From a virus, in IMG/VR virus record IMGVR_UViG_3300025872_000395, positions 1-20,339 of that record: 20,339 nt of DNA; one strand, given 5' to 3'. The notes beneath the pieces were generated by a model. That model was not told where the DNA came from and ran no database searches. It saw only the letters and a list, made by a program, of their open reading frames with translations. The position numbers and the translations under genes are program-made. Positions 835 to 14,291 of this stretch are shown piece after piece (the stretch's first letter is position 1; every line of letters starts with the position of its first letter).

Positions 835-1010
835 ACTTCCTGGCTGACTTCGTGATGAAGCTTGTCATCTGGCTTCATTCGCTGACGAAGCAGGATACGA
901 CGAACGAAGATGCTAAGAAGCAACCCGATCTTAAGCGCGGTCTTCTTGATCGTGTGCGCGAGCATGAGCGTGAGCTGCGCGAGCCGGGTGATTTACGTCC
1001 CCCACGGTGA
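831..1010 (+). CDS. Small helical protein, possible i-spanin-like partner
   Basis: A 59-residue frame from ATG 831 to TGA 1008-1010, coupled by ATGA to the holin gene. The N-terminus has a hydrophobic helix (FLADFVMKLVIWLHSL, residues 3-18); the rest is highly charged and helical (LKRGLLDRVREHERELREP). The last 101 bases overlap a different frame that encodes a secreted lipoprotein-like product starting at 910. An N-terminally anchored charged helix overlapped out of frame by a small lipoprotein gene is the arrangement of Rz/Rz1 spanins, which disrupt the outer membrane. Length is short for an i-spanin and the hydrophobic helix contains Asp and Lys, so the assignment is tentative. Confidence 0.5.
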   Translation: MNFLADFVMKLVIWLHSLTKQDTTNEDAKKQPDLKRGLLDRVREHERELREPGDLRPPR

Positions 1011-1134
1011 GCCTGTGAGGCTTGCTGAGGACGTTAAGGCCAAGGTTTGGGTCGTTGACGCCAGCGGCAAAACGGTGCGTAGTAAGAACCGCATTATCAT
1101 CCATGAAGGCTGGTATGCGCTTCCAAAGGACTAA
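910..1134 (+). CDS. Small secreted (lipo)protein, o-spanin-like
   Basis: A 74-residue protein starting at ATG 910, out of frame with and partly inside the 831-1010 gene. Residues 1-23 form a signal peptide (basic MLRSN, hydrophobic ILSAVFLIVCA) ending in SVSC, a possible but non-canonical lipobox because position -3 is Ser rather than Leu. The mature part (RVIYVPHGEPVRLAEDVKA and then KVWVV...GWYALPKD) is a short beta-rich domain of a kind often seen next to phage holins. The nested position is as expected for the outer-membrane lipoprotein of a spanin pair. If the signal is cleaved elsewhere, it is simply a small secreted phage protein. Confidence 0.55.
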   Translation: MLRSNPILSAVFLIVCASMSVSCASRVIYVPHGEPVRLAEDVKAKVWVVDASGKTVRSKNRIIIHEGWYALPKD

Positions 1135-1291: not shown

Positions 1292-1324
1292 ATCCCCCGG
1301 TGGTAATGAAAACCATCGGGGGAT
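1292..1324. terminator. Hairpin between convergent genes, probable bidirectional terminator
   Basis: Arms 1292-1304 (ATCCCCCGGTGGT) and 1312-1324 (ACCATCGGGGGAT) pair over 13 positions with a single G-T wobble, around a 7-base A-rich loop. It lies between the last plus-strand gene (ends 1280) and the end of the minus-strand operon (1345). A short T-containing stretch follows the stem on both strands (AATTGTTT and, on the minus strand, TTCGTTTG), although the T tract is imperfect. Position and symmetry fit a terminator acting on both transcripts. Confidence 0.75.
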
Positions 1325-1344: not shown

Positions 1345-2538
1345 TCAGCGTCCTAACGATTTCATCACGCTGGCAACGAAGTCTTCGCTCTTCGCGGCGT
1401 TCGTATTTGCCGGTCGAGAACCGCCGCTTGTCGCGCGCGAGCTGACTCCAGGTTCGCTTCCGCGATACTTCGACAGCTCAGCTTGGAGACGCTTGTTCAC
1501 CTCGACCTGAGCGTAGAGCAGTTCGCGGTACTTGGGAGCGGCAGCGGCCCACAGGGCAGCTTTGGCCAGATCCTCTTCGCTGTTCTCACCGTTGAAGATT
1601 TGCTGGGCGAGACTGAGACGCTGGTTCAGTTCGCTATTCCACTCCTCGTCGTTCTCACGCGGCTCGAAGATTTCGAGAGAGCGAGCATCGCTGGAAACCT
1701 TCTGCCAGGTCTTCGTGGCCGACTCCAACGCAGCTTTCGTTCCCTCCTCGTTATCCTGCTGGTACTTGGAGATGACCGCATCGTAATCGGCCTTCGCCTC
1801 GGACAATTCGGACGCGCGTTCGCCATTGATTTCGTCGTACTTAACGATGAGAGCGCCAAGTTTGGCCTTCTTGGACGGTGAAAGACCTTCAACGATGTCG
1901 TCGATCTGCGAGTTGCGATAATCGCTCTCGGGCGATTTCAGCAGCGAAACAAGGCGTTCGCCGTCGGTTCCGACAAGACTCTTCACCGAATCAAAGACGC
2001 CATTGATCTTGCCCTCGTACTTCTTGATGAAGTCGGGATGACGCTCGATGTCCAGCAGTCGAACACGCTCCGAAAGCGCATCACGCTCCTCCTGCAACGC
2101 CTTGAGCTGCGATTCGAAATCAGGATTGGTAGACTTTCCAGCCTTCAGCTCGTCCAGTTGCTTCGCAAGCTGCGCCTTCTCTTCCTTGATCTTGCGAAAA
2201 GCATCAGCGGCTTTCGTTGACTTGATCGTCTCGGGGATGTCGGCGTCGTCAGTCGCGGCGGGAGCGGTGGATTCAGCAGCCGGTTTCTTACTTCCGAACA
2301 TCCGCTCGATGTCCTTCTCAGCTTTACTGAGCTTCGGAGATGTATCGTCCGAGGATGGCTTGGCCGACTTCTGCTTCTGCTGCTGCTTAGGTTCTTCGGT
2401 AACCTGAGAGGCAGAATTTGCAGCCTCATCAGCCGACGCGGCATCATCAACTCCGCTCGCTTTGAAGGCGTCGATGAACGAGCTGCCGAAGTCAGGAGTT
2501 TGGCTATTGACGAGAGGTGAATTCAGGGGTTCTTCCAT
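1345..2538 (-). CDS. Scaffold-like head assembly protein
   Basis: A 397-residue acidic, Lys/Glu/Ser/Ala-rich protein without a globular fold signature. The first ~100 residues are low-complexity (TEEPKQQQKQKSAKPSSDD). A long coiled coil follows, about residues 108-170 (KIKEEKAQLAKQLDELKAG, LKALQEERDALSERVRLLD). More helices run to about residue 350, then a Ser/Gly linker and a short basic C-terminal helix (FVASVMKSLGR). Scaffolding proteins, which drive procapsid assembly and are then expelled, typically have this elongated helical form and a short basic helix that contacts the capsid protein. It is the last gene of the operon that holds terminase and portal. No Shine-Dalgarno sequence is visible before the ATG; the leader is AT-rich. 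Unusually, no major capsid gene follows it. Confidence 0.6.
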   Translation of the reverse strand: MEEPLNSPLVNSQTPDFGSSFIDAFKASGVDDAASADEAANSASQVTEEPKQQQKQKSAKPSSDDTSPKLSKAEKDIERMFGSKKPAAESTAPAATDDADIPETIKSTKAADAFRKIKEEKAQLAKQLDELKAGKSTNPDFESQLKALQEERDALSERVRLLDIERHPDFIKKYEGKINGVFDSVKSLVGTDGERLVSLLKSPESDYRNSQIDDIVEGLSPSKKAKLGALIVKYDEINGERASELSEAKADYDAVISKYQQDNEEGTKAALESATKTWQKVSSDARSLEIFEPRENDEEWNSELNQRLSLAQQIFNGENSEEDLAKAALWAAAAPKYRELLYAQVEVNKRLQAELSKYRGSEPGVSSRATSGGSRPANTNAAKSEDFVASVMKSLGR

Positions 2539-2549
2539 ATTTTTAGAGA

Positions 2550-2882
2550 TTAGTATTGTTTCTCAAAAGTCGCTTCAGGTTCTTTCGCTGTTTCAATTAC
2601 GGCCAATTTTCGAAGGTTTTCAAGACAATGCGCGTAGCCAGCGGTTACACCGGCTGCAAAAATGATGTCCGATTCCTTGCTGCCATGAGACGGCATCGGC
2701 ACCGGGATTGACTCCGACACGATGCGAATCGCCATGCGGAGGATCGGATTCTTCATAATCGCTGCAAGTTCTGCCTGCTGCCCTTCGTTCTGCCATTCGC
2801 TCAGGTTTACTTCAGGCAGATTCAGCAGGTCCTGCTTCGTCTGATTGCTTGGGTTCTTCGTCAAGCCTCTTAGCCAGTTCAT
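2550..2882 (-). CDS. Small protein between portal module and scaffold
   Basis: A 110-residue protein; ATG at 2882 lies inside the 3' end of the upstream GH130-like gene, giving a 71-base overlap. The only later in-frame ATG (2756) would remove the segment VNLSEWQNEGQQAELAAIM, which looks like the natural core start, so the long form is preferred. The core has a helix, then a charged loop (PSHGSKESD) and a helix ending AGYAHCLENLRKLAVIE. In many phages a small protein of the form 'W..hP..qal...., then .aG...GL..vl..l' sits between portal and scaffold genes; position and pattern agree, but its function is unknown. The scaffold-like gene starts 11 bases after its stop. Confidence 0.55.
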   Translation of the reverse strand: MNWLRGLTKNPSNQTKQDLLNLPEVNLSEWQNEGQQAELAAIMKNPILRMAIRIVSESIPVPMPSHGSKESDIIFAAGVTAGYAHCLENLRKLAVIETAKEPEATFEKQY

Positions 2883-4170
2883 TGTATTTAGACTTCTTGT
2901 TTCGTTTCAGTTTATGCCGCTCGGGAATCGGGTCGATGACATCAACCAATGTCGGCGGATTGGTCTTATTGACGACATCGCGTTTCGGTCGAATCACCTT
3001 CGTCACCTCAAGCAAGTCGGCCAGTGGCAGCTTCATGTAGCCACAGTCCACATCGTTGATGCCGTACGAGATGACGAAGTGATTCTTCGCGCTGTCGAAG
3101 AAAGCACCGCACGGGAATACGACCGCTGGCAATCCGGGCCACCAGTCTTGCTGGTTCGTGCCGGTGAGAAGCGGCAGCGTCGTCATGCGGACGATGCGGA
3201 ACGGAGCTTTGGCTTCGAAAGCGTACGCACCCATGTAGTAGCGGCGCTTGCGGTTTATCCACGGCAACGAGCTGTGGAAGAAGGTCCAGTAAAGGCCGTC
3301 GCAGAGAATTGGATTAGTTCCGCCTCGAACCTCGCCAAATTTCCAGAGCGGATTGAACTCCTCGGTGACGTACTCGGCTTCCTTCTCTAGTCGCCCATTG
3401 AGGCGCACAACGACATGGGGATTGGCCGAATACACCATGTGTGGCGCATTATCGTGGACGAAGTAGAGCCAGTTCTTTTCATGGCCATCGTTGATCATGG
3501 CCTGCGCGTAGTTGTTGCCGTAGATCGGATCGAATCGGCCCACGTTCAGAAACTGCTTGTCGAGCAGGAACACCGCCTGATGCGCGTAGCTCTTGAACGG
3601 AACGAACGTGCAGCAGCTTATTCCGTACTTGTCTCCGAACTTCACGACGCGCGGATCTTCGAACTGCTCGTTCGGATAACCGGCGGTGAGCTGAAGGATC
3701 GACTTTTTTGTGGCTCGTAAATCTTTACTCAGCTCGAAGGCAACGATGTCGTTCTTCTCGGTGTAAACGTCCTCGTCTTTCTCACGCTTGTTCCGGCAGC
3801 GACGGGCGAAAAGCATGATTCGTCCATCTGCCTCCTGCATGATGGCTGGGTTGAAGTAGTACGTCCCTGTTTCAGCCGGAAGCACGATTTTGCCAATTTC
3901 CCAATCGGTTTGTTCGGCCAACTTTGGGACATCATTTTTTGCGTAGCTCATTAGAAACTCGGCTGCGAATTTGAGTTCGTCGTACAGTGAAAGCCAATGG
4001 TCGCGTTCCTCGCGGACCTCGGTGAGATGTTCCTCATGCTCCTTGGTGCGAATCTCCAGCGTTTTGCGGAGGTCTTCAATCTGCATGAGAAGATCGGCAT
4101 GACCATCGCCGCCATTGGCGAAGCGTTTAAGAGCCTTGAGGCTGATGTCTCGGATGATGTCTCTCATCAT
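2812..4170 (-). CDS. GH130-like beta-propeller protein with N-terminal coiled coil
   Basis: ATG at 4170 (ATGATG) overlaps the upstream stop; a longer frame to 4275 exists but runs into the previous gene. The 452-residue product has a helical, charged N-terminus (coiled coil about residues 25-70) and then a propeller-type domain. That domain carries motifs in the order expected for family GH130 mannoside phosphorylases and related five-bladed propellers: FNPAIM at about 106, FEDPR at 170, RGGTNPI at 282, VVFPCG at 350 and SYGINDVDCGYMKL at 368. GH130 enzymes cleave mannosides, mostly by phosphorolysis. Activity is not assured, because the loops around the EDPR and GGT motifs diverge from what I recall of the family. 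It follows two GT25 glycosyltransferases, so a role in trimming, binding or displaying the same glycan is plausible. The C-terminus is charged and probably disordered. Confidence 0.65.
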   Translation of the reverse strand: MMRDIIRDISLKALKRFANGGDGHADLLMQIEDLRKTLEIRTKEHEEHLTEVREERDHWLSLYDELKFAAEFLMSYAKNDVPKLAEQTDWEIGKIVLPAETGTYYFNPAIMQEADGRIMLFARRCRNKREKDEDVYTEKNDIVAFELSKDLRATKKSILQLTAGYPNEQFEDPRVVKFGDKYGISCCTFVPFKSYAHQAVFLLDKQFLNVGRFDPIYGNNYAQAMINDGHEKNWLYFVHDNAPHMVYSANPHVVVRLNGRLEKEAEYVTEEFNPLWKFGEVRGGTNPILCDGLYWTFFHSSLPWINRKRRYYMGAYAFEAKAPFRIVRMTTLPLLTGTNQQDWWPGLPAVVFPCGAFFDSAKNHFVISYGINDVDCGYMKLPLADLLEVTKVIRPKRDVVNKTNPPTLVDVIDPIPERHKLKRNKKSKYNELAKRLDEEPKQSDEAGPAESA

Positions 4171-4796
4171 GGATACAAGTTTGTGTTCTCCTGCGTCGCC
4201 AATCTCGGAAGAATTCCGTAGAAATTCATCCTGGGCATCGAATCGATCAGCATCTGAATGTCGATTGGACCCCAAACCTTTTGGTTCGTTTCAAGGAGCT
4301 TACAAGCCCCCTCGTAGTTTACAAGATATGCATGGGTACACATGCCTCGAACCAGTTTGTACAGGTTTGATGCGATGTAGCCATGATCTTCAATCGGATC
4401 AGCGCAGCAGCTTCCGAGGTAGACGACATGCCAATCGTTCGGAACGAATTGCAGGTTGTCGTTGGCCAGCGACTTCCAGTTCTTGTCGAGAAACTCAACA
4501 TCATCCTCAACGATCAGAAAGGTGCGATGATCGGTCAGCTTCGCCTCAACCATCCATTTGATGGCCGACCATGCGGCAAAGTGGCTGAGTCCGGCGACGA
4601 TGGTTTTGACCTTCGCCTTCTCCTTTTCCCGAGTGTGGTAGTAGTCGGTTGAAATGCCGCAGTTGTGCGCGCGAAAGCCATAGATCGGAACCGCATCGAT
4701 TCCGAACGACTTCATGTACCGAATGCACCGCCTCTCCTTCTCGCTCTCAGGATTTGAGATGATGAAGGTCGGTGTGTTCTCGAAATCGACTCTCAT
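4167..4796 (-). CDS. GT25-family glycosyltransferase (second copy)
   Basis: ATG 4796 overlaps the TGA of the upstream methyltransferase (ATGA), which selects this start over the longer frame to 4841. The 209-residue protein has the GT25 layout. It opens with a strand (TFIISNPESEKERRC), then a variant of the GC.LSH..aW hallmark (VAGLSHFAAW, residues 67-76), a metal/nucleotide-sugar binding acidic motif (VEDDVEF, EDD at 97-99), and the C-terminal GPIDIQM segment near 177. GT25 members transfer galactose or glucose, for example to lipooligosaccharide or to collagen hydroxylysine in animals. It is clearly related to the 5387-5989 product (shared GSCCA, CTH.Y.V, L.ET, PID.QM and ATQE/ADQE-type ends), so the two are duplicated copies. 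Acceptor and donor are unknown. Confidence 0.8.
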   Translation of the reverse strand: MRVDFENTPTFIISNPESEKERRCIRYMKSFGIDAVPIYGFRAHNCGISTDYYHTREKEKAKVKTIVAGLSHFAAWSAIKWMVEAKLTDHRTFLIVEDDVEFLDKNWKSLANDNLQFVPNDWHVVYLGSCCADPIEDHGYIASNLYKLVRGMCTHAYLVNYEGACKLLETNQKVWGPIDIQMLIDSMPRMNFYGILPRLATQENTNLYP

Positions 4797-5383
4797 CGGT
4801 TGGGGAGGATGTAGATGATGCCGCGCCGAGCGCCGACGCATCGGCTCGGATGGTTGTAGTAGTAGCTGTAGCCGTACTTCTGTGTCAGCGTCTTCGCTCG
4901 ATAAATCGCATCCAGCTTCTCCTTGATGTAGCCGAAGCAGATGTCGTGGTTGTTGTAGCTGTCGAATCCAAGCTGTCCGGTCGGCTCCTTGAAGTCGTGG
5001 ATGGCGATGACCGGATGCAGATCGTACCGATTGATTGCCTCAAGCTCCTCAAGCAGCGGAAGGTAATCGTTCCAGTGGGCGTCGAGGAAGAAGATCGTGT
5101 CGTGTCCAACACCGTGATGCGGGATGAACCAGTTCATGCAGGCATCGCTGCTGCCTTCGAACATCTCCACATGGAGCTTCTCACGCTTGAACCGCTCCTT
5201 CGCCTTCTCGACACGATCATGGTCAAGCTCGCATGAGACGGTCTTCAGGAAGTTCCTGGCCAACCAGACTGTCGTGTCGGCTTCGTGCGTTCCGGTTTCG
5301 ACCGCAGTCGTAAGCTCGAAGCGTTCTTTGAGGTAAAGAAACTCCTGCTCGATGAACGTGTCTCCGTTAAATGGTGAACCCAT
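4793..5383 (-). CDS. SAM-dependent methyltransferase-like protein
   Basis: A 196-residue protein starting at ATG 5383, three bases after the preceding stop. It has a class I (Rossmann) methyltransferase pattern. Motif I is TAVETGTHEADTTVWLA (residues 26-42, Glu/Gly loop for S-adenosylmethionine), Glu52 ends the second strand (VSCELD), FFLDAHW (98-104) fits the third acidic motif, and VIAIHDF (125-131) fits the next strand. This resembles the Methyltransf_24 type used on sugars and small phenolics. It lies between the two GT25 genes, which suggests O-methylation of a sugar they add; this is inference. It is only distantly similar to the 5997-6617 methyltransferase. A Tyr-rich C-terminal segment (YGYSYYYNHPSRCVGARRG) is a distinguishing feature. 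Confidence 0.7.
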   Translation of the reverse strand: MGSPFNGDTFIEQEFLYLKERFELTTAVETGTHEADTTVWLARNFLKTVSCELDHDRVEKAKERFKREKLHVEMFEGSSDACMNWFIPHHGVGHDTIFFLDAHWNDYLPLLEELEAINRYDLHPVIAIHDFKEPTGQLGFDSYNNHDICFGYIKEKLDAIYRAKTLTQKYGYSYYYNHPSRCVGARRGIIYILPNR

Positions 5384-5386
5384 GTT

Positions 5387-5989
5387 TTAGTCGGCTAGAA
5401 TCATTCCCTCCTGATCGGCAACACGCGGGAAAATGGTGAAGCAGTTGAGATGCGGTCTACTGTTGAAATACATCTGCAAATCGATTGGGGCGTTAATCGC
5501 CTCGTTCGTTTCGATCAGCGTCTTGAGAGCTTTCTTTCGGACGATGTAACAGTGAGTGCAAAGTGGCATCCCTTCGAACAGGTTTGAATCGTACTCGCGG
5601 CTGATCTTGCCGTGCGCGCAGCATGAGCCTGGATAGAGCAAGTCCCAGTTTTCCGGCAGCTTTATCAGCGCGCGTTCAATCGTCTCGCGCCAGTGCGGCC
5701 TGAAAAGGATGTCGTCCTCAAGCACCATCACCATGTCTGGCGTCTTCGGATCGAACTCCAGCGCGTTCCAAAGCATCCAATGCGACATCGTGCATCCGAC
5801 ATGCTTATGGCAGATCAGATAGCCTGAGCCGGGATTATCGACCTCGTACGGAATGCTCGCCTTCAGACCGGACTTCTTTCCATTCAGGCCATAGAAGATC
5901 CGATAATCCGTAATGCCAGCGGCACTCAGATTCTCTTTTAAGCGCGGGATACGCGGCGAACCGCGCATCGTGATGACTACCGTTTCCAC
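5387..5989 (-). CDS. GT25-family glycosyltransferase (first copy)
   Basis: The preferred start is GTG 5989, seven bases after the upstream TAA (5997-5999), giving 200 residues. It begins VETVVITMRGSPR, a normal GT25 N-terminal strand. A start at 6055 would add 22 residues encoded inside the upstream gene that look non-native. Hallmarks are GCTMSHWMLW (residues 65-74, canonical GC.xSH..xW), VLEDDILF (EDD 91-93, donor/metal site) and APIDLQM near 167. GT25 enzymes move galactose or glucose onto glycans or onto hydroxylysine of collagen-type proteins. Its paralogue is two genes downstream, with a methyltransferase on the 5' side of each copy. Conserved Cys-Cys in GSCCA and CTHCY may form disulfides or bind metal. 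The biological acceptor is not known. Confidence 0.8.
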   Translation of the reverse strand: METVVITMRGSPRIPRLKENLSAAGITDYRIFYGLNGKKSGLKASIPYEVDNPGSGYLICHKHVGCTMSHWMLWNALEFDPKTPDMVMVLEDDILFRPHWRETIERALIKLPENWDLLYPGSCCAHGKISREYDSNLFEGMPLCTHCYIVRKKALKTLIETNEAINAPIDLQMYFNSRPHLNCFTIFPRVADQEGMILAD

Positions 5990-5996
5990 GGTTCGA

Positions 5997-6617
5997 TTAT
6001 TTGAGCTTCCGATAAACCGCGAAGCAGCTCTCAGCGAGGTCGTAACGAGCAACAAACTCGCAACGCTTCAGAACGAACTTGAGAGCGGTCTGAGTCGATT
6101 CCCAATTCACATCATCCATGACGATGTATCCGCCGACCTTGAGCTTTGGAAGCCAGTTCACGACATCGCTCGTAGACGGCCATTCGGCGTGGTTTGCATC
6201 GATGTGAACCATGTCCATGTCGGGCAGAGAACGGGACGCATCCCAGCTCGACATGCGGCAGTATTGGATGTGGCGGACAACCTTTGCGCGAACGGTGTGT
6301 CCGACGAACGATTCGTAGTGCTTGTCCAGATCGAGCGTTGCCCACCATTCCTGATTCGCTGCTGATTCGTCGTCGATGCAGTCCTCTTTCTTCCAAGAGT
6401 CGATGGCATAGACGGTTCCGCTGCCGTTCAGCTTGCAGGCGTAGGCCAAGGCGAGCGTTGATTTGCCCTCGAAGACACCGACTTCGGCAATCTTCTGAGG
6501 CTTGGTATCGAGGACGAGCTTCGCAATTTCGAAGCCTTTGCGTTGATCGCACCAGCCGCCCATCTTGGGAAACTGATCTGCGATGAATTGAGAGACGAGT
6601 TCTTCGTTCTGGCTCAT
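5997..6617 (-). CDS. SAM-dependent methyltransferase (class I, Methyltransf_24-like)
   Basis: A 206-residue protein that starts a few bases after the portal stop. The class I fold signature is clear: motif I IAEVGVFEGKSTLALAYA (residues 43-60), an acidic end of strand two (VYAIDSW, Asp73), MDMVHIDANHAE (134-145, with Asp140 and His143) and GGYIVMDDVNW (162-172). The pair HID.NH and MDDV is typical of enzymes that methylate hydroxyls of sugars or catechols with a bound metal, often found in glycan gene clusters. Here it is the first gene of the five-gene cassette inserted between portal and scaffold. Substrate is unknown; sugar O-methylation is the best inference from the GT25 neighbours. No N6-adenine or cytosine DNA-methyltransferase motif (DPPY, PCQ) is present. 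Confidence 0.8.
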   Translation of the reverse strand: MSQNEELVSQFIADQFPKMGGWCDQRKGFEIAKLVLDTKPQKIAEVGVFEGKSTLALAYACKLNGSGTVYAIDSWKKEDCIDDESAANQEWWATLDLDKHYESFVGHTVRAKVVRHIQYCRMSSWDASRSLPDMDMVHIDANHAEWPSTSDVVNWLPKLKVGGYIVMDDVNWESTQTALKFVLKRCEFVARYDLAESCFAVYRKLK

Positions 6618-6622
6618 AAATT

Positions 6623-8872
6623 TTAACCCTGACGCGCCAAGTTCGACTCAGCAGTTGCGTTCGCTCGTTGAATGTCCGCCGTCGTCTTCGCATTCCGGCG
6701 AGCCAAGTCGGCCATCGCCTTCGTGTTCTGACGCTGAATGTTGGCCATAGTCTCGGCGTTCTGACGAGCAATTTTCGACTGAACTTCCGCGTTGAGAACA
6801 GCGGTCTTCGGATCAACGCCCTGCTGAATCGCCATCGCCTGCTGCTGCTGCGCCATCGCCTGAGCTTGCTCCTGAATCAACTGACCAAGCTGCTCAATGG
6901 TCTGACTAAGCATCTGGAGCTGCTGCGCGTAGGCGTCAACCTGCGGACGGCGCGTCGGATCGGTGGACAGACGTTGCAGATGATCCTGAACGTGCTGACC
7001 GATGCCCTGAAGGAAGAGAACAATCTCCTGCGGATTGCCGCCCTGTTGGAGCGAAGCAGCAGCTTCGTTCGCAGCCGCCAGATGCGTGTCGATGTGGACG
7101 ATGTGATTTTGCGTGTCCGTGACGACCGCCATGTTGCCCTGGCGCAGCGACGAATGCTCAAGGACGGCCAGAGCGGTCTGATCCTGAACCTTCGAAGTCT
7201 GCAACTGGGTCGGCAGATACCGATCAACCATCTGCTGGCCAACCTGAGCGGCAATGTAGTCCTGCAAAAGGTTCACTTTGCCACCCTCGGGGAGCGAACC
7301 GAGCAAACCGAGGAGCGAACCGAGAAGCTGTTGCTTGGCGAACTGAGAACCTTGGCCAACCGTACGAGTCGCCTCGACGTAATCGATGTCGAGCATGGCT
7401 TGCTGCGGAACACCGCGCTCACGGCAACGGCGCTGGAACTCAATCGCGTCCTTATCCGAGCGGGTAATTGGATTCAGATTCGGATTCGAAGCGCGGCGAT
7501 ACCGTTCCTCAAAGAAAGAATCGAGCTGGGTGTAATACCGGCTTAGCTGCGTCTTACCGATTGCGGATTGTTGGGCAACAATCGCCTGAACTTCGGTGGC
7601 AGTACGGGGATTGCCCGACGGCTTGTTGAGCGTTTGGCGATACTGAGAGAGATTGCCTTGAAGAACATTTTCAAGGTCTTGATTGACCGCCATAGGAGCG
7701 TCCAGAACGCCAGCAATGTTCTGCTGAATGACTTCGTAGTCTGGCGGGAGTATCGCATACGGTCCTTGTTGAACGACGCTCGTTTTGCTGAGCGCATTGG
7801 GGTTGAGCGGACGGAACAGGATCTGGGTGCGAGCGAATGCGCTATCGACCATCGAGCAGCGCAGACGATTCTTCAGCTCCATCGCCTGAAGCATCTTGAT
7901 ACCCAAGCCTTTGACACCGTGATGCTCGCCATCACCACGGTCGTAATACATCGGATGAATCACCTGCTCCCACTTCTTGAAGCGACGGAGCTTGCGGTAC
8001 ATGAAGTCCTGGCTGTCACGCTCATCGATGATGGCGTGGCTGATCTGACCATCGAATTCCTTGTAGAAAACGTGGCACATCAGCACAACCTCGGAGCGAG
8101 CTGAGAACGTGATGTCGTTCGAACGAAGCTGGCGCTGGAAGAACTCCCAGTCGTACTGAACACCGGAACGATACGGCTCGGGCATCGCAGCACGGATACG
8201 CTCACGGACGTAATCGACGTTCCAGCCAGCGGCGCGAGCAGCCTCCTCGTCCTGAATCTTCTCAAACAGGTCATCGACACCCATGCGGGTGCGGACGCAG
8301 GCCACCTTCCAGTCGCTGACATTCGACTTGGTTCCATCGGGGACGAGAAGATCCGTCGCCATGATGGCTTTGCAGCGCCAGTTGGTGCTGTCTTCGAAGA
8401 TCAGCGGACCATCGCCAATGAGAACCATTTCACGCTGCGAGAGCTGGACGAGGTAATCGAAGTCCTTGTCGAGCTTCTGAAGCCGGTCGAACTCCTCGGT
8501 GATGATCTTCGACCATTCCTCCCGTTTATCCATGTCGTTGCCGTAAGCGGTACGGACATTCGCGTAGGTCGGAACCTCGGCGAACACATCATAGAAGGCT
8601 GACATGGCCAACGTGAGGAACGCTTCCGACTCGCGGAAGTTCACATTGGTTCGGAACGCCTGATTGTTACGACGTAGTTCGGCGGGGTTGTACGGAGGAT
8701 TGCCATCAACCAGACCGCGCAACTTGGCTCGCGTATTATTCCGAAGCTCGTCGGCCATGATGAGCTTCTGGAAGATTTCACGGGCCGATGCCGCGTCGGC
8801 TATGCGCGTCTCTGGCGCTTTACCGTCTTCGTTGAGGGTTTCAAGCGGCAGTTGGGCTATTGATCCGTACAT
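6623..8872 (-). CDS. Portal protein (head-tail connector)
   Basis: A 749-residue protein encoded after terminase and the Cys-rich gene. Portal proteins form the dodecameric ring at one capsid vertex through which DNA is packaged and ejected. Supporting features are the length (close to P22-type portals of about 725 residues), the N-terminal helical region, a central beta-rich part, the conserved-looking MVLIGDGPLIFED and a long region YEVIQQNIAGVLDAPMAVN with TATEVQAIVAQQSAIGKTQLSR (typical of the portal stem/clip helices). The C-terminus (from about residue 650) is Gln/Ala-rich and helical, ending in four 11-residue repeats. P22 portal has a C-terminal helical barrel in the same place, so the tail may form one. 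The start at ATG 8872 overlaps the upstream gene by 16 bases. Confidence 0.85.
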   Translation of the reverse strand: MYGSIAQLPLETLNEDGKAPETRIADAASAREIFQKLIMADELRNNTRAKLRGLVDGNPPYNPAELRRNNQAFRTNVNFRESEAFLTLAMSAFYDVFAEVPTYANVRTAYGNDMDKREEWSKIITEEFDRLQKLDKDFDYLVQLSQREMVLIGDGPLIFEDSTNWRCKAIMATDLLVPDGTKSNVSDWKVACVRTRMGVDDLFEKIQDEEAARAAGWNVDYVRERIRAAMPEPYRSGVQYDWEFFQRQLRSNDITFSARSEVVLMCHVFYKEFDGQISHAIIDERDSQDFMYRKLRRFKKWEQVIHPMYYDRGDGEHHGVKGLGIKMLQAMELKNRLRCSMVDSAFARTQILFRPLNPNALSKTSVVQQGPYAILPPDYEVIQQNIAGVLDAPMAVNQDLENVLQGNLSQYRQTLNKPSGNPRTATEVQAIVAQQSAIGKTQLSRYYTQLDSFFEERYRRASNPNLNPITRSDKDAIEFQRRCRERGVPQQAMLDIDYVEATRTVGQGSQFAKQQLLGSLLGLLGSLPEGGKVNLLQDYIAAQVGQQMVDRYLPTQLQTSKVQDQTALAVLEHSSLRQGNMAVVTDTQNHIVHIDTHLAAANEAAASLQQGGNPQEIVLFLQGIGQHVQDHLQRLSTDPTRRPQVDAYAQQLQMLSQTIEQLGQLIQEQAQAMAQQQQAMAIQQGVDPKTAVLNAEVQSKIARQNAETMANIQRQNTKAMADLARRNAKTTADIQRANATAESNLARQG
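6626..6772 (-). repeat. Four 11-residue repeats at the portal C-terminus
   Basis: Codons 701-749 of the portal gene encode IARQNAETMAN, IQRQNTKAMAD, LARRNAKTTAD and IQRANATAESN, then a partial LARQG. Each repeat starts with a hydrophobic residue, has Arg at position 3 and Asn at position 5. An 11-residue periodicity fits a right-handed (hendecad) coiled coil or helical barrel. Confidence 0.8.
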
Positions 8873-9486
8873 GGTCGTTTTTTCCAGCAGTGGGCCGGAA
8901 GGTTTTTGTTCTCTGTAGCGTCTGTAAATTTATGGAGCGTTTCAATGGGAAACCACACCATGCTCCTGATAAAGCAACCGCAAAATTCGCAGCTTTGCAG
9001 CGATTCGTCCAGAGGTGTGCTGCCGTGCTGAGAAAAAGTTTTTACCGCTTCTTTCAGCACCCGAGCGTTGCAGCCGGTGCATCCGAGCGGTTTACGGTTG
9101 TACATGCAGGTCGAGCAAATTGACGCCCTGCGCGTCGCCTCCGCTTGGCTCACCTTGCCTCCGCCAACGGTCAGCCCATGAAGCAAACTCATGCTGAACC
9201 GGATTACATCTCCAATCTGGAGCGATTTGCGGCCTTCCGGCTTTGGAATCTCCACCTCATTGAACATGCAGTCAGCCCCGTTACGACACGCATACTCGGT
9301 GATTAATGTGTCAAGATTGGGCGGGATGGGTATCGCGTTGGCCGTGTAATGGTTACGAACGAACTCATGGAGCTGCGGCCATGATCCGCCCATGATTTCA
9401 ATCCCAGTCTCGGGGACGCGGTAATGCCATCCGCCGGGGATGACCATGTGTTCGTTCAGGACTTTGTAACCCGTCTTTGCGCTCAT
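8857..9486 (-). CDS. Cys-rich, probable zinc-binding protein next to terminase
   Basis: A 209-residue protein whose ATG (9486) overlaps the terminase stop (ATGA). The C-terminal half has regularly spaced cysteines at 124, 127, 136, 139, 166, 169, 171, 200 and 206 (CSTC, CTGC, CEFCGC), enough for two zinc sites of ribbon type; two more lie at 67 and 73. The preceding segment VSQAEATRRASIC and the following CEFCGCFIRSMVWFPIE match a pattern I recall from uncharacterised phage proteins: R..iC..C..N then C..C.C.....v..P.e. The N-terminal half has the aromatic-rich MVIPGGWHYRVPETG. Its constant place between terminase and portal suggests a packaging or head-assembly role, but none is established. 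Confidence 0.65.
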   Translation of the reverse strand: MSAKTGYKVLNEHMVIPGGWHYRVPETGIEIMGGSWPQLHEFVRNHYTANAIPIPPNLDTLITEYACRNGADCMFNEVEIPKPEGRKSLQIGDVIRFSMSLLHGLTVGGGKVSQAEATRRASICSTCMYNRKPLGCTGCNARVLKEAVKTFSQHGSTPLDESLQSCEFCGCFIRSMVWFPIETLHKFTDATENKNLPAHCWKKRPCTDQ

Positions 9487-11159
9487 AAGTCGTCGTAATA
9501 GATCGAATCAGCGTCTCGAACGAGCTTTTCCCAGACTTTATCCATCTTGGTTGCTCGCGGTTCGAGAACAGCGGTTTTGCGGACTAGATCAAGCAAGACT
9601 ACAGCAGCGTCGGCCAAATCAGGCGATTTTCCGGTTCGCTGCTTCATCACGGTCTTGGATTCGACCGATATCTTCCGCTTGGAATCATCAAACATGCGCG
9701 AGCAGAACTCCTGCAATGTCTCGATGTCCACGCCTCCGACACGCTCTTCGATGACCCATTTCCGCATCGAGAACCAAAGTTCCGTCACCTTGCGGTCGTA
9801 TGCCTCATTGCATGGCCGACTATCCTCATCGCTGACCGGAATGGTTGACGGCGAGCCGCCGAACTCGACGCGGTGAACAACACCCCATTCGCGGGTCAGA
9901 ATGTCAGCCAAACCTCCACCCTCACCGCTTGAATCCAGAGCGAACTTGTCAGGCGGTATGCTTCGCTTGATGCACTCTTCTTTGACCCGATTGGCAATCT
10001 GGTAGTGAACCGGCTCGGTCAGCGCGGCATTTGGAGAGATTTGGACGACATCGCCAAAAAGTATGCTCAGCTTGTCATTTGCGGTGCCAACCTTGGCAAA
10101 GCGAAGGATACACCTGTCGCCGCCGAAACCAGGGTCGAGAGCTGCCACCTGCTCGACATTGGTCGTAAACGTCAACTTTCTTGTAGGTGTGTGCGTCTCG
10201 ATCAGTGATTCGGACAGCACCGTCTTGACCATACCATCCGGCGCCCAGAATCCGCGTGTGTACTTCCAGAACGTAGGGCTTTGCTCACCCTCATGTCGCA
10301 TAGCGGATAAAACCTGATCATGCGTTATGAGGTATGGATACTTGGTTCGCCCTTCGCTGATGTTCGGCGACTTCATGCCGTCGAACCGTCGGCACATGCC
10401 GCGTTCTGTCAGCCAATGCTGATCTTCAATCGTTACGCTCCTCCAACCCTTTGCCGGTGTGCAGAATCGTCCGTGCGGATCGTACTTCGAAGCGGGGTTT
10501 CCGATGACCAACATCTTGAATTCGCGGCAACCCTTGGAAAGGTTGGTACACGCCTCGAAAGCCGCCTCTGGCGTGTCAGTCGCTTCGTCGATGATGACCA
10601 TCACGCGTTCGGCATGGATACCCTGGATGTTGGCCACAGCCTTCGCCGTATTGCCTTCCGCGACAGCAATGGCCGATATTGAGTGTCTGTCGTCACCTTT
10701 AATGGCCTGAAGCGCCATCTTGGAATCGACCATGTTGCCGGGAAACCCACGCGACTTACGGACCAGATCCTGAAGATTGGCCCACATACGCTTACGGATC
10801 ATCTTCGCTGTCGTCGAGGTCAGGACAACGGTGGACTTGGAAGGATTGGCCAACCACCAGACGGTAGCGAAAAGAGTCGCTCCGAACGTCTTGCCGGATG
10901 CGCCGCAGCCAGCCCAGCCGACATAATCGTGTTCGCAGAGACTTTCGACCTGAGCTTCCAGCCACGGATTCCAGCTCAGCTTCGGCCAGAGCATCTTTGT
11001 GGCGTTCTGAAAATGCTCAAAAGTGCCTAAACCACCCTCGTTTGGCTGGAGTCGATTTCGGAATGCGTAAAGTTCCAGTTCTAGGTCTGGAATCTTGACG
11101 GGTGAACGTATCCCGTACTTATGCTGAATCAGTGGATGCTCGGACGCTTGCTCTGCCAT
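9483..11159 (-). CDS. terL: Terminase large subunit (DNA packaging ATPase/nuclease)
   Basis: The start is set at ATG 11159 (558 residues), which has AAGG eight bases upstream; the frame extends to 11225 but would run through the divergent gap into the opposing gene. The ATPase part has a Walker A variant GCGASGKT (residues 84-91), Walker B VMVIIDEAT (186-194, Asp191-Glu192) and a coupling-type motif LVIGNPA (217-223). The C-terminal RNase H-like nuclease shows three acidic sites: ALDPGFGGDR (Asp342), FALDSSGEGGG (Asp409) and SPDLADA (Asp514, Asp517). The enzyme cuts concatemeric phage DNA and pumps it through the portal into the prohead. No separate small-subunit gene is evident in the window. 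It opens the minus-strand head operon. All key residues seem intact. Confidence 0.93.
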   Translation of the reverse strand: MAEQASEHPLIQHKYGIRSPVKIPDLELELYAFRNRLQPNEGGLGTFEHFQNATKMLWPKLSWNPWLEAQVESLCEHDYVGWAGCGASGKTFGATLFATVWWLANPSKSTVVLTSTTAKMIRKRMWANLQDLVRKSRGFPGNMVDSKMALQAIKGDDRHSISAIAVAEGNTAKAVANIQGIHAERVMVIIDEATDTPEAAFEACTNLSKGCREFKMLVIGNPASKYDPHGRFCTPAKGWRSVTIEDQHWLTERGMCRRFDGMKSPNISEGRTKYPYLITHDQVLSAMRHEGEQSPTFWKYTRGFWAPDGMVKTVLSESLIETHTPTRKLTFTTNVEQVAALDPGFGGDRCILRFAKVGTANDKLSILFGDVVQISPNAALTEPVHYQIANRVKEECIKRSIPPDKFALDSSGEGGGLADILTREWGVVHRVEFGGSPSTIPVSDEDSRPCNEAYDRKVTELWFSMRKWVIEERVGGVDIETLQEFCSRMFDDSKRKISVESKTVMKQRTGKSPDLADAAVVLLDLVRKTAVLEPRATKMDKVWEKLVRDADSIYYDDL

Positions 11160-11213
11160 AGTTTGGCCTTGCAATAGTTCACTCTGGACTTGACCGTCTG
11201 GCAAAGGAAAAAT
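11160..11213. promoter_or_regulatory. Divergent intergenic gap between head and tail operons
   Basis: Only 54 bases separate the start codons of terminase (minus) and the tail fibre (plus). These genes head two long divergent operons, so start signals for both must lie here or within the flanking coding sequence. Ribosome sites are visible: AAAGGAAA for the fibre and AAGG for terminase. No convincing pair of sigma70 -35/-10 boxes was found in either direction, which would fit a phage-specific or activator-dependent promoter. Confidence 0.4.
11203..11210 (+). promoter_or_regulatory. Ribosome binding site of the tail fibre gene
   Basis: AAAGGAAA ends three bases before ATG 11214, with its GG about five to seven bases away. 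It supports the 11214 start over the upstream in-frame codon at 11190, which has no such site. Confidence 0.6.
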
Positions 11214-12419
11214 ATGCCGTCGCAACTTGTTTCTTCATCCGGCTGTTGCCAGCCTTGCGACTCCGAGCCGGTTGTCGTGAATATCCCCGGCCCTCAAGGT
11301 CCGGCTGGAACCAACGGCACGAATGGCACGAACGGAATCAATTCGTTCACCTACACGACCGCTCCGTTCTTCGTCCCGGCACTCGGTTCGAGCGTCTACG
11401 TTTACGTCGATAACACCGATTTCTTGCCAGAATCCGTCGCTGGCCAGTTCTTCGTATCGGTTCAGGGTCTTGGGTACATGCAGGTTACGTCGGTTGACGG
11501 TCTGCGCCTGACGCTCCAAAACCCCGCTGCTGGAGTCCTGGGAATTGCCAATGCTGTTCCGACTACGCTGATTCCGACTGGTTCGCTTATCACGCTTGCC
11601 GGTGCGATTGGGGCGACTGGCGCTCCCGGCGTATCTGGTGGCGCTCCGGTTGGAGCGACGTACATTTGCCGCACTTCGGATGCGACTCTGACGAGCGAGA
11701 CTGCTCTTGATTCTCTGTCTGCTGGCTACATCAAGACTCAAGGATCGAGCGGTTTTGGTGCTGTTTCGACGGTTTCCACGATTCCGATTGCTGATGTCAC
11801 CGGAACGGTTCCGGTTGCGAAGGGTGGCACGAACCTGACGACTGCTCCGTTGAACAAGATTCCGGTGGGCGATGGTTCGACCTACCTCCAGAAAGAGATT
11901 GTCGGAACGCTTCCGATTGTCGTTACGAACAGCGCGGGAAACATCACGCTGTCGGCTCCGTCGATTGTTCCATTCAGCTACGTCACGTTTACGCGCAGAG
12001 TTACCGGAATCGGTGCTGCAAATGCCCCGCTGCTGGTTGGCGCTACGACCACGAATCCGTTCAGCCTGACAACTTATCCGCTGGCATCGTACGCCGGAGT
12101 TGATACGGCATCTGGATTCAATGCGACACTCGGACGGTTTACCGTTCCATTTACCGGATACTACACGATTGACGTTTTGCTCAATCTTGACGCGGTAACA
12201 ACCACCGCGTCGGTCAGGGTTTTCATTAGGAAAACCGGCTCCGACATCATCGCGTCGTTTCCGTTCAACGTGACAAGTTCTGGGTTTCAGCCGATATCAA
12301 TGAACTACATTGATAACGCGACTTCAGTGTCAAACTACTACGAGGTTTTTATCAGCACCACGCACGATATTTACGTCGATCAAGGCTCCTCGTTCTCTGT
12401 TCAGCGGATTCAGGCTTAA
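11214..12419 (+). CDS. Collagen-like tail fibre protein with C1q-like C-terminus
   Basis: A 401-residue protein starting MPSQLVSSSGCCQPC. The N-terminal CCQPC is followed by six Gly-X-Y triplets (GPQ GPA GTN GTN GTN GIN, residues 26-43) and, after a beta domain, a second short run GAI GAT GAP GVS (130-141). The middle holds VTGTVPVAKGGTNLTT, a motif common in phage tail-fibre repeats. The last ~140 residues look like a C1q/TNF-type trimeric beta-sandwich (ASGFNATLGRFTVPFTGYYTI). Collagen-like stalk plus C1q-like head is a known design for trimeric adhesins, including phage fibres, and suits receptor binding. It heads the plus-strand tail operon. The X and Y positions have Asn and Thr but no Lys. 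Confidence 0.75.
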   Translation: MPSQLVSSSGCCQPCDSEPVVVNIPGPQGPAGTNGTNGTNGINSFTYTTAPFFVPALGSSVYVYVDNTDFLPESVAGQFFVSVQGLGYMQVTSVDGLRLTLQNPAAGVLGIANAVPTTLIPTGSLITLAGAIGATGAPGVSGGAPVGATYICRTSDATLTSETALDSLSAGYIKTQGSSGFGAVSTVSTIPIADVTGTVPVAKGGTNLTTAPLNKIPVGDGSTYLQKEIVGTLPIVVTNSAGNITLSAPSIVPFSYVTFTRRVTGIGAANAPLLVGATTTNPFSLTTYPLASYAGVDTASGFNATLGRFTVPFTGYYTIDVLLNLDAVTTTASVRVFIRKTGSDIIASFPFNVTSSGFQPISMNYIDNATSVSNYYEVFISTTHDIYVDQGSSFSVQRIQA

Positions 12420-12422
12420 ACC

Positions 12423-14291
12423 ATGAGCGAACGCGCACCACGGAGGTACACGGACGGATCTGTCACCTTTGAGGGTGGCATCGATTCCGGCGTGATGCCG
12501 TCGGAAGTGGACAAGAATCAGGTGGCGTTCGCGGTCAATGCCAGCTTCCGGCAAAGCTACGTCTCTCCTCGCCCCGGTTTTGTTCAGAAAGATTACGACC
12601 TGTGCGTCACCATCACGGCTGACAACGATCAGATTACCGCTGATCAGACGAATGTGACAGCGGATGGCTGGTCGGAAGAATGCTACGGCCCTCAGTCGCT
12701 GACTGGCACATTCCAATGTGCGCTTCCCTACATCGCCGACGATGGACGCACGTTCATCCTGATGCTGATCAGCGGTAACGTCTGGCTGTACGACACGGAG
12801 CAGAACAAGGCTCAGAACCTGACGGTTTCACCGGATCTTGAGAACCCGTCGAACCTGCTTGATGGCTGGATGGTTCAGGCTGAGAACTTCGTCGTCATTC
12901 AAGATGGGTTCAGCAAGCCGTTGATCTTCAACGGAACGAATCTGCGCCGTGCTACGGATGACGAAATCAAGTGCGGCAGAATGATGGCCTACGTCAATGG
13001 CCGCATCTGGTACGCGCTGCCGAATGGATTCTCATTCCGTGCGACTGACATCGTTTATGGAGATGGAACGCGAGCCAGTGTTCTCAAAGAAACCGAGAAC
13101 ACCTTCCTCAATGAAGGCGGCGACTTTGCGGTTCCGTCGGATTCAGGAGGTATCACGGCAATGGCCGTCCCAGGGAATCCAGATACGTCGCTTGGGCAAG
13201 GGCCGCTTCTAGTCTTCACGCCTCGTTACGTTTTCAGCGTAAACGCTCCTGTTGATCGTGAGGTTTGGAAGAACCTGAACTATCCGATTCAGGCCATCAG
13301 CTTGCTTACGAGCGGTGCGCTTGGTTCTCGGTCGGCCATCACTGTCAATGGCGATGTATTCTACCGCGCTGTCGATGGCGTTCGCTCCTTTATCATCGCT
13401 CGTCGCTCGTTCAATGACTGGGGAAATACACCCATCAGCAACGAGATTCTGAACATTGCCGAGAACGATCAGACTAATCTGCTGTGGGCCAGCTCTGCGG
13501 TCGTGTTCGACAACCGTCTGCTGATGACTGGCCAACCTCGGTACAATGCCGAGGGCGTCATTCACAAAGCGCTGATGGTCTTGGACTTCGACCTGATTAC
13601 GTCGCTGCGGAAGAAGTTTCCTCCGGCTTGGGCTGGAATCTGGACCGGCCTGAATGTGTTGCAGCTCGTCAAGACCGAGAACGCTTACGGTGACAGGTGC
13701 TTCTCAATCGCTCGCGGATCGGACGACACGATTCAAATCTGGGAGATTACGAAGGGCGACAAGTTCGATAACAACATCACTGACGGTAAGAAGGAAATCG
13801 AATGGATGGTGCAGACTCGCGCCTACAACTTCGAGGTTCCTTTCGGACTGAAGCGGCTCGATTCCGGCGACTTGTTCATTGACTCGCTTGAGGGTGATGT
13901 TTCGTTCAACGTCACCTATCGGCCAGATCAGTATCCTGGCTGGATCGAGTGGATCGACTTCTCCGAATGCGCGACGACGACGCAGTGCTTGGATCTGTGT
14001 CCGCTAACAAACTTCAAGCCGCAGTATCGCCCGAAGATGCGTTTTCCGACGCCTTCGGATGCGCCGTGCAATGAGACGATCAGCACACCGGCTCGGAATC
14101 TCTACGAGGTTCAGGTCATGCTGAACATCATTGGGTATTGCCGGATAAAGAGTATTCGCGTTCACGCCTACGATGTTCAGGAGCCGAGTGTCGGTGAATG
14201 CCGGACGGTGTATCCGGCCTGCACTCCGCTTGATGTCTGCGATATCAATCCGCTGACCTACACATCGGAATCGGTTAATCCTCTCGCATAA
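12423..14291 (+). CDS. Large virion structural protein, tail nozzle-like
   Basis: A 622-residue protein starting three bases after the fibre gene. The N-terminus (VTFEGGIDSGVMPSEVDKNQ, then AFAVNASFRQSYVSPRPGFV) resembles the opening of short-tail tube proteins, where a GG...P..v...q...N....v..RPG pattern is found. A later stretch (LLVFTPRYVFSV, ITVNGDVFYRAVDGVRSF) is typical of beta-propeller tail-accessory proteins such as P22 gp10 and T7 gp12. Such proteins form the lower tail tube or nozzle. The last ~120 residues are cysteine-rich (SECATTTQCLDLC, CNETIS, GYCRI, GECRTVYPACTPLDVCDI), unusual for this family and possibly a metal- or disulfide-stabilised module. The family link is by remembered pattern only. 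Confidence 0.55.
   Translation: MSERAPRRYTDGSVTFEGGIDSGVMPSEVDKNQVAFAVNASFRQSYVSPRPGFVQKDYDLCVTITADNDQITADQTNVTADGWSEECYGPQSLTGTFQCALPYIADDGRTFILMLISGNVWLYDTEQNKAQNLTVSPDLENPSNLLDGWMVQAENFVVIQDGFSKPLIFNGTNLRRATDDEIKCGRMMAYVNGRIWYALPNGFSFRATDIVYGDGTRASVLKETENTFLNEGGDFAVPSDSGGITAMAVPGNPDTSLGQGPLLVFTPRYVFSVNAPVDREVWKNLNYPIQAISLLTSGALGSRSAITVNGDVFYRAVDGVRSFIIARRSFNDWGNTPISNEILNIAENDQTNLLWASSAVVFDNRLLMTGQPRYNAEGVIHKALMVLDFDLITSLRKKFPPAWAGIWTGLNVLQLVKTENAYGDRCFSIARGSDDTIQIWEITKGDKFDNNITDGKKEIEWMVQTRAYNFEVPFGLKRLDSGDLFIDSLEGDVSFNVTYRPDQYPGWIEWIDFSECATTTQCLDLCPLTNFKPQYRPKMRFPTPSDAPCNETISTPARNLYEVQVMLNIIGYCRIKSIRVHAYDVQEPSVGECRTVYPACTPLDVCDINPLTYTSESVNPLA

Follow-up and report, generated by a model that had tools for sequence, protein, structure and literature searches.

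The viral DNA analysed here, IMG/VR record IMGVR_UViG_3300025872_000395 (positions 1 to 20,339, a stretch of 20,339 nucleotides hereafter called the window), carries on its minus strand a head-gene operon in which a run of predicted glycosyltransferase (GT) and methyltransferase (MT) genes is embedded. The operon reads TerL, ZnR (a small cysteine-rich gene), portal candidate, MT1, GTa, MT2, GTb, GH130-like, g110 and scaffold candidate, and the interval between portal and GH130-like genes is a slot at which GT and MT genes recombine under selection. Start codons set by comparison with relatives leave a 7-nt gap between MT1 and GTa, a 4-nt ATGA overlap between MT2 and GTb, and two alternative GH130 starts at the GTb/GH130 junction (Table 1). 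The five genes that an earlier note, made from the sequence alone, had described as tightly packed or overlapping are real and form one tight operon; the long overlaps were an artefact of calling open reading frames from their first start. Their placement between portal and scaffold was also confirmed in order, with TerL as the sole confirmed head-module identity and both other names resting on size and position.

The enzyme assignments were made with Pfam, PDB and PHROG profiles. MT1 falls within the class I S-adenosylmethionine methyltransferases (Methyltransf_24, E 6.6e-20), with PDB profile matches to the O-methyltransferases 2hnk, NovP and CmcI; among PHROGs it matches a family labelled DNA methyltransferase (1.7e-15). 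GTa matches Glyco_transf_25 (PF01755, 1.4e-11), retains an acidic EDD metal-binding motif (E113 D114 D115 in long-ORF numbering) that is invariant in 18 sequences, and has PDB profile matches to R655, a procollagen galactosyltransferase and a GT25; among PDB profiles, the cassette's GT25 families match R655 (PDB 9crz) best. For GTb, the window copy stays under the curated Glyco_transf_25 cut-off (3.2e-4), which its relative in L011 clears (1.1e-5, 25.9 versus 24 bits). MT2 reaches at best E 5e-4 for Methyltransf_25 among nine relatives, with the window copy under the cut-off, and is 31% identical to an annotated methyltransferase of cyanophage S-SCSM1. Of the two GT25 enzymes and two methyltransferases initially listed, MT1 and GTa are clear, GTb stands through its relatives and MT2 is weak. 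Judged from these families, the cassette would transfer sugars and methyl groups.

To compare the slot across relatives, regions retrieved with portal, GH130 and TerL were extracted from portal stop to GH130 start and clustered, giving 80 distinct regions; the portal scan alone returned 167 related metagenomic stretches. The window type, MT1-GTa-MT2-GTb, was found in 31 of the 80, followed by GTc-MTc-MT1-GTa (19), GTe-MT2-GTb (8), GTc-MTc-GTd-MTd (8), GTc-GTd-MTd (4), MT1-GTa (4), MT1-GTa-MT2-GTb-MTd (2) and four singletons; among the latter, L024 probably represents the window type with MT1 wrongly called. Beyond the window type there are thus at least nine other combinations, mostly assembled from GT/MT pairs. 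A hybrid, GTe-MT1-MT2-GTb, in which MT1 lacks its GTa partner, was observed in L133 and L308. The slot's families span GT25 in three groups (including GTd, PF01755 1.7e-22), a PF04488 DXD glycosyltransferase (GTc), a GT2/GT7-like enzyme (GTe) and O-methyltransferases, with MTc belonging to Methyltransf_11 and MTd to Methyltransf_24. Every one of the 80 regions held at least one GT and at least one MT, and no empty slot occurred among them. The site predicted for related phages is therefore kept throughout, while the window's order is shared by 31 of the 80 regions, so that a fixed alternation reflecting a single pathway was not borne out. Since these families reappear at this position throughout the 80 regions and are under purifying selection, the cassette is not a chance arrangement, and in this form the proposal of a GT and MT cassette at a conserved head-operon site holds. 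A GT25 search for unrelated phages carrying the module gave, as its best 80 loci, ones that look like the present lineage.

The variable part is bounded precisely by the portal stop codon and the GH130 ATG: identity is about 95–100% outside the cassette edges and about 0.2–0.4 inside, falling from about 0.95 to about 0.3 right after the portal stop. Portal and GH130 genes that are about 97% nucleotide-identical can nevertheless border cassettes that differ completely (as in L088/L094 and L010/L011), and mean portal identity is 0.862 for pairs with the same cassette versus 0.851 for pairs with different ones. A portal tree of 73 genomes requires 28 architecture changes, where the minimum is 9 and the shuffled mean 40.4. 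Close relatives thus exchange cassette genes freely, and strong purifying selection acts on every module family, with median ratios of nonsynonymous to synonymous substitution of 0.048–0.087 in nine cassette families, compared with 0.060 for the portal and 0.094 for GH130. Partners within a module co-diverge closely (r 0.85 for MT1-GTa, 0.93 for MT2-GTb, 0.95 for GTc-MTc and 0.92 for GTd-MTd), and cassette genes correlate with the portal at r 0.12–0.47 in the families compared.

The GH130-like gene is present downstream wherever a related region extends far enough, and it co-diverges with the portal (r 0.78) rather than with the cassette genes (r 0.21–0.44). Because GT-MT partners co-diverge and GH130 follows the portal, the exchangeable unit is the GT/MT module and GH130 belongs to the backbone; its inclusion in the cassette, as in the earlier note, was accordingly rejected. 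The protein matches PF04041 (E 2e-11, 43.9 bits versus a curated cut-off of 26), and D171 in its EDPR motif, invariant in 20 sequences, aligns with the catalytic Asp of Lin0857; in BT3780 the GH130 catalytic residue is Asp142 (PMC4599007). N106, R122, E170-D171 and D372 are invariant as well, N106, R122 and D372 being matched by motif alone to Asn74, Arg89 and Asp363 of BT3780 (PMC4599007). In the sequence alignment, E279 stands where phosphorylases have a basic phosphate-contact R/K, and H298 is retained. The protein may act as a hydrolase or a phosphorylase, or may bind glycan; its AlphaFold2 (AF2) model, with a predicted local distance difference test score (pLDDT) of 40, was not used.

Table 1. 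Features of the window around the exchangeable slot, with coordinates in the window.
Feature	Coordinates	Strand	Basis or remark
TerL, first gene of the operon	9483..11159	-	phrog_2, 3.3e-23
Portal candidate, 749 aa, constant left anchor	6623..8872	-	left slot edge at its stop codon
MT1, class I O-methyltransferase (Methyltransf_24), partner of GTa	5997..6617	-	Pfam, PDB profiles
GTa, GT25 glycosyltransferase	5387..5989	-	Pfam, EDD motif, profile matches; start GTG 5989
MT2, probable class I methyltransferase, partner of GTb	4793..5383	-	weak Pfam, cyanophage similarity
GTb, GT25 glycosyltransferase	4167..4796	-	Pfam (via relative L011), motifs; start ATG 4796
GH130-like propeller protein, helical N-terminus, constant right anchor	2812..4170	-	Pfam; start ATG 4170 or 4167
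g110, conserved 110-aa gene	2550..2882	-	
Scaffold candidate, acidic and charged, last gene of the operon	1345..2538	-	73-96% identity in relatives
Terminator-like 13-bp stem at operon end, between convergent genes	1292..1324	+	
Small lipoprotein-like gene	910..1134	+	Rz1-like lipobox
Col, collagen-like/C1q tail fibre, divergent from TerL; proposed cassette acceptor or partner	11214..12419	+	
Col residues 61-120, beta-domain alleles covarying with MT1+GTa (Ser93, Asp95, Gln102)	11394..11573	+	

Among the anchors, the portal candidate shares 87–100% amino-acid identity between relatives and gave no convincing Pfam or PHROG match, a PHROG search on 12 homologues returning nothing significant; Pfam gave no family match for the scaffold candidate. 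A consensus scan, in which the overall terminator count was at chance level, showed the stem at the operon end as the only strong terminator-like one, and no promoter-like site was seen by such a scan in the cassette interior.

The gene whose variation is most clearly tied to the cassette is Col. Its product comprises six G-X-Y triplets, a beta-domain (residues 44–132), a further short G-X-Y run and a C1q/TNF-like domain; the triplets are conserved, although the Pfam Collagen profile (E 0.19) stays under its cut-off. The AF2 model has a pLDDT of about 75 over most of the beta-domain and mostly over 90 for residues about 255–400, and the C-terminal fold (residues about 252–401) matches C1q and BclA structures with Z 13.7–15.4 in VIA-align, which mainly covered the C1q domain (13.7–13.8 for BclA). 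With Foldseek, full-length Col matched a chain of the cyanophage A4 portal-tail complex, and the tail fiber family phrog_31660 matches 35 of 63 Col homologues. Beside TerL lies a second variable spot, at which three extra genes (about 805, 116 and 140 aa) occur between TerL and Col in genomes including L009-L012, L029, L066, L067, L069 and L079; the window (11160–12423) is without this insert.

Comparing the distances of other genes with cassette difference, while controlling for portal distance, we found the clearest association after dereplication in the N-terminal half of Col, with segment 61–120 the strongest; the capsid candidate, TerL and scaffold showed no covariation with cassette type. 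In a column-wise scan of 12 genes and 2,343 residue states in 29 dereplicated genomes, the ten strongest associations all lay in Col alignment columns 63–118 (numbered from 0, so that column 94 corresponds to Asp95 in the window's Col). Asp95 is present in 44 of 47 genomes with MT1 and in none of 14 without it, and Gln102 in 46 of 47 versus 1 of 14, with identical counts when scored against the MT1+GTa pair; Ser93-Asp95 sits at the end of one strand, ahead of the next. Independent contrasts on the portal tree ran 7:0 (sign p 0.016), and label shuffling equalled the best column in 50 of 2000 trials (family-wise p 0.025). Mean r2 with MT1+GTa is 0.198 for Col 61–120, compared with 0.03–0.08 for the rest of Col, TerL, ZnR, portal, GH130 and scaffold, and covariation is absent from the C1q-like tip. 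Col lies 5 kb from the cassette, and because the intervening TerL, ZnR and portal stay at background r2, simple linkage is not the explanation.

A prediction fixed beforehand, that the Col allele follows MT1, was checked in six contigs outside the discovery set. All four contigs with MT1 as first cassette gene carry Ser93 and Gln102, and three of them Asp95 (L007 has Asn). The two without the MT1+GTa pair both lack the SVDGL motif and Gln102: L294, without MT1, fits the prediction, and L308, which has MT1 without GTa and the no-MT1 allele of Col, breaks it for MT1 alone and fits it for the pair. Together with L133, this suggests that the MT1+GTa pair, rather than MT1 by itself, tracks the Col allele.

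The slot contents are thus swapped and matched to a version of a fibre domain, so these phages probably alter the sugar coat of their own particles. We give about an even chance to the explanation that the portal-to-GH130 slot is an exchangeable cassette glycosylating and O-methylating a virion protein, most likely Col, for which the tail-fibre covariation lends indirect support. The slot's paired modules, each a glycosyltransferase with a methyltransferase, would share the head-gene operon and be exchanged, whole or singly, by homologous recombination through the flanking backbone genes. Late in infection, their enzymes would add and O-methylate sugars on the virion protein, most probably on the Col beta-domain, and swaps would alter particle surface chemistry and hence adsorption, rebinding to debris or recognition by surface defences, with the constant GH130-like protein perhaps acting on, or docking, the resulting glycan. 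A narrower version is doubtful in our judgement, namely a matched glyco-type in which each GT/MT module modifies its own Col 61–120 allele and the types recombine like serotypes; the hydroxyls concerned might, just as tentatively, be Ser93 in MT1+GTa genomes and residue 95 in most GTe-MT2-GTb genomes, and, to be set beside these, most GTd-MTd genomes have no hydroxyl at 93 or 95.

Several observations weigh against Col as acceptor. The association came from scanning, and since it was found by search the covariation is a strong lead, not proof; as label shuffles ignore phylogeny and the columns for the contrasts had been chosen by the scan itself, its true significance is uncertain. Over its whole length, Col covaried significantly before dereplication and then dropped to r 0.075 (p 0.12), the best 60-column window was equalled in 149 of 2000 shuffles (p 0.075), and the adjacent P620 is weakly associated too (p 0.0085). 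L029, L037 and L071 are exceptions, and MT2 is weakly identified as a methyltransferase. A ColGalT-like mechanism, in which GT25 would modify hydroxylysine in the collagen-like part, is unlikely because there are six G-X-Y triplets only, with no Lys in the first stretch. Domain 61–120 could also follow host receptor type instead of bearing glycan.

That last point leads to the main rival, in which the cassette remodels host lipopolysaccharide (LPS) or exopolysaccharide, for superinfection exclusion or to avoid rebinding to debris, and Col covaries through host receptor type. We consider this rather less probable, although GT25 takes its name from LPS biosynthesis, PHROGs classes the matching phage families as moron/host takeover, swappable GT/MT sets look like serotype loci, and Col is a tail fibre. 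The genes lie within the head operon and not in an early or moron position, a Pfam search of the cassette proteins scanned gave no GtrA-like flippase or GtrB-like bactoprenol glycosyltransferase, and the covariation is N-terminal and missing from the C1q-like tip, where receptor binding would be expected. If, instead, the virion is glycosylated on a head protein (portal, major capsid or GH130-like) and the Col signal is chance or indirect, the operon shared with head genes would fit, as would the phage capsid glycosylation known for Che8 and Rita (cited in PMC11256854). Capsid candidate, TerL and scaffold do not covary with the cassette and the portal is at background, which counts only weakly against this reading because a head acceptor need not covary; we nonetheless hold it to be improbable. 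Least likely is a recombination-prone cargo site unrelated to virion or surface glycans, such as one for modifying phage DNA or small molecules: the DNA methyltransferase PHROG matched by MT1 would favour it, but Pfam and PDB place MT1 with small-molecule and sugar O-methyltransferases, GT is kept together with MT in every variant, and a non-exhaustive scan of the early genes gave no hydroxymethylating or base-modifying enzyme that would support DNA modification.

Decoration of a virion protein by exchangeable modules has parts in common with several known systems. The Gtr-type seroconversion cassettes of temperate phages are likewise exchangeable GT modules beside a constant neighbour; here, in contrast, no GtrA/GtrB partners were found among the cassette proteins scanned, the position is not one of lysogenic conversion, and methyltransferases are paired with the GTs. 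BclA of the Bacillus exosporium, which carries O-methylated sugars, combines a short collagen-like stretch with a C1q/TNF-like trimer domain, as Col does, but is a bacterial spore protein, linked to Col through the fold match. Capsid glycosylation is known in mycobacteriophages, and virion glycosylation in the cluster F1 phages Che8 and Rita is cited in PMC11256854; the likeness lies in glycosyltransferases that the phage encodes and that are shown, or proposed, to decorate proteins of the virion. Maravista, an F1 phage, has its GTs close to the 3' end of the genome, whereas here GT and MT pairs are swapped in a head-operon slot. Particle glycans with methylated sugars are known from chloroviruses and mimivirus (PMC4691112, PMC9614988). 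Chlorovirus PBCV-1 decorates its major capsid protein with its own GT and methyltransferase activities (PMC4691112, PMC9614988), whose loss or mutation gives antigenic variants; it differs in being a eukaryotic giant virus with an N-linked capsid-protein glycan and variants arising mainly by mutation or deletion. Mimivirus combines viral glycosyltransferases (L230, R655) with collagen-like virion proteins, L230 acting on hydroxylysine of the latter (PMC9614988), whereas in Col the short repeat contains no Lys, and the cassette showed no lysyl hydroxylase. The literature searched contained no case of GT/MT pairs being exchanged at a single slot together with corresponding fibre alleles.

As for the lineage, tblastn against 50,697 phage genomes gave no match for the portal candidate, Col, P620 or the capsid candidate, and neither the portal nor the MT2 alignment gave a match in bacterial genome contigs. 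A 424-aa, very conserved protein without a family match (L237:8618-9889, in the G002 record, minus strand in that record) is probably the major capsid protein; it is encoded on the other strand from TerL, portal and scaffold, which divides the head module in an unusual way. The window's small lipoprotein-like gene adjoins holin-like genes, and its Rz1-like lipobox suggests a Gram-negative host. A Shine-Dalgarno-like core within 18 nt upstream was found for 5–6 of the 28–35 genes of at least 150 aa in G001, G002 and G006, with A-rich leaders, and the host may therefore not rely on Shine-Dalgarno initiation.

Virus-encoded particle glycosylation is known in few systems, and dozens of near-identical backbones with swapped GT/MT modules amount to a natural comparative experiment on phage glycan function. 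If the fibre association holds, an acceptor domain and candidate residues are already named, and glycosylation in an uncultured lineage would therefore become testable with a few recombinant proteins.

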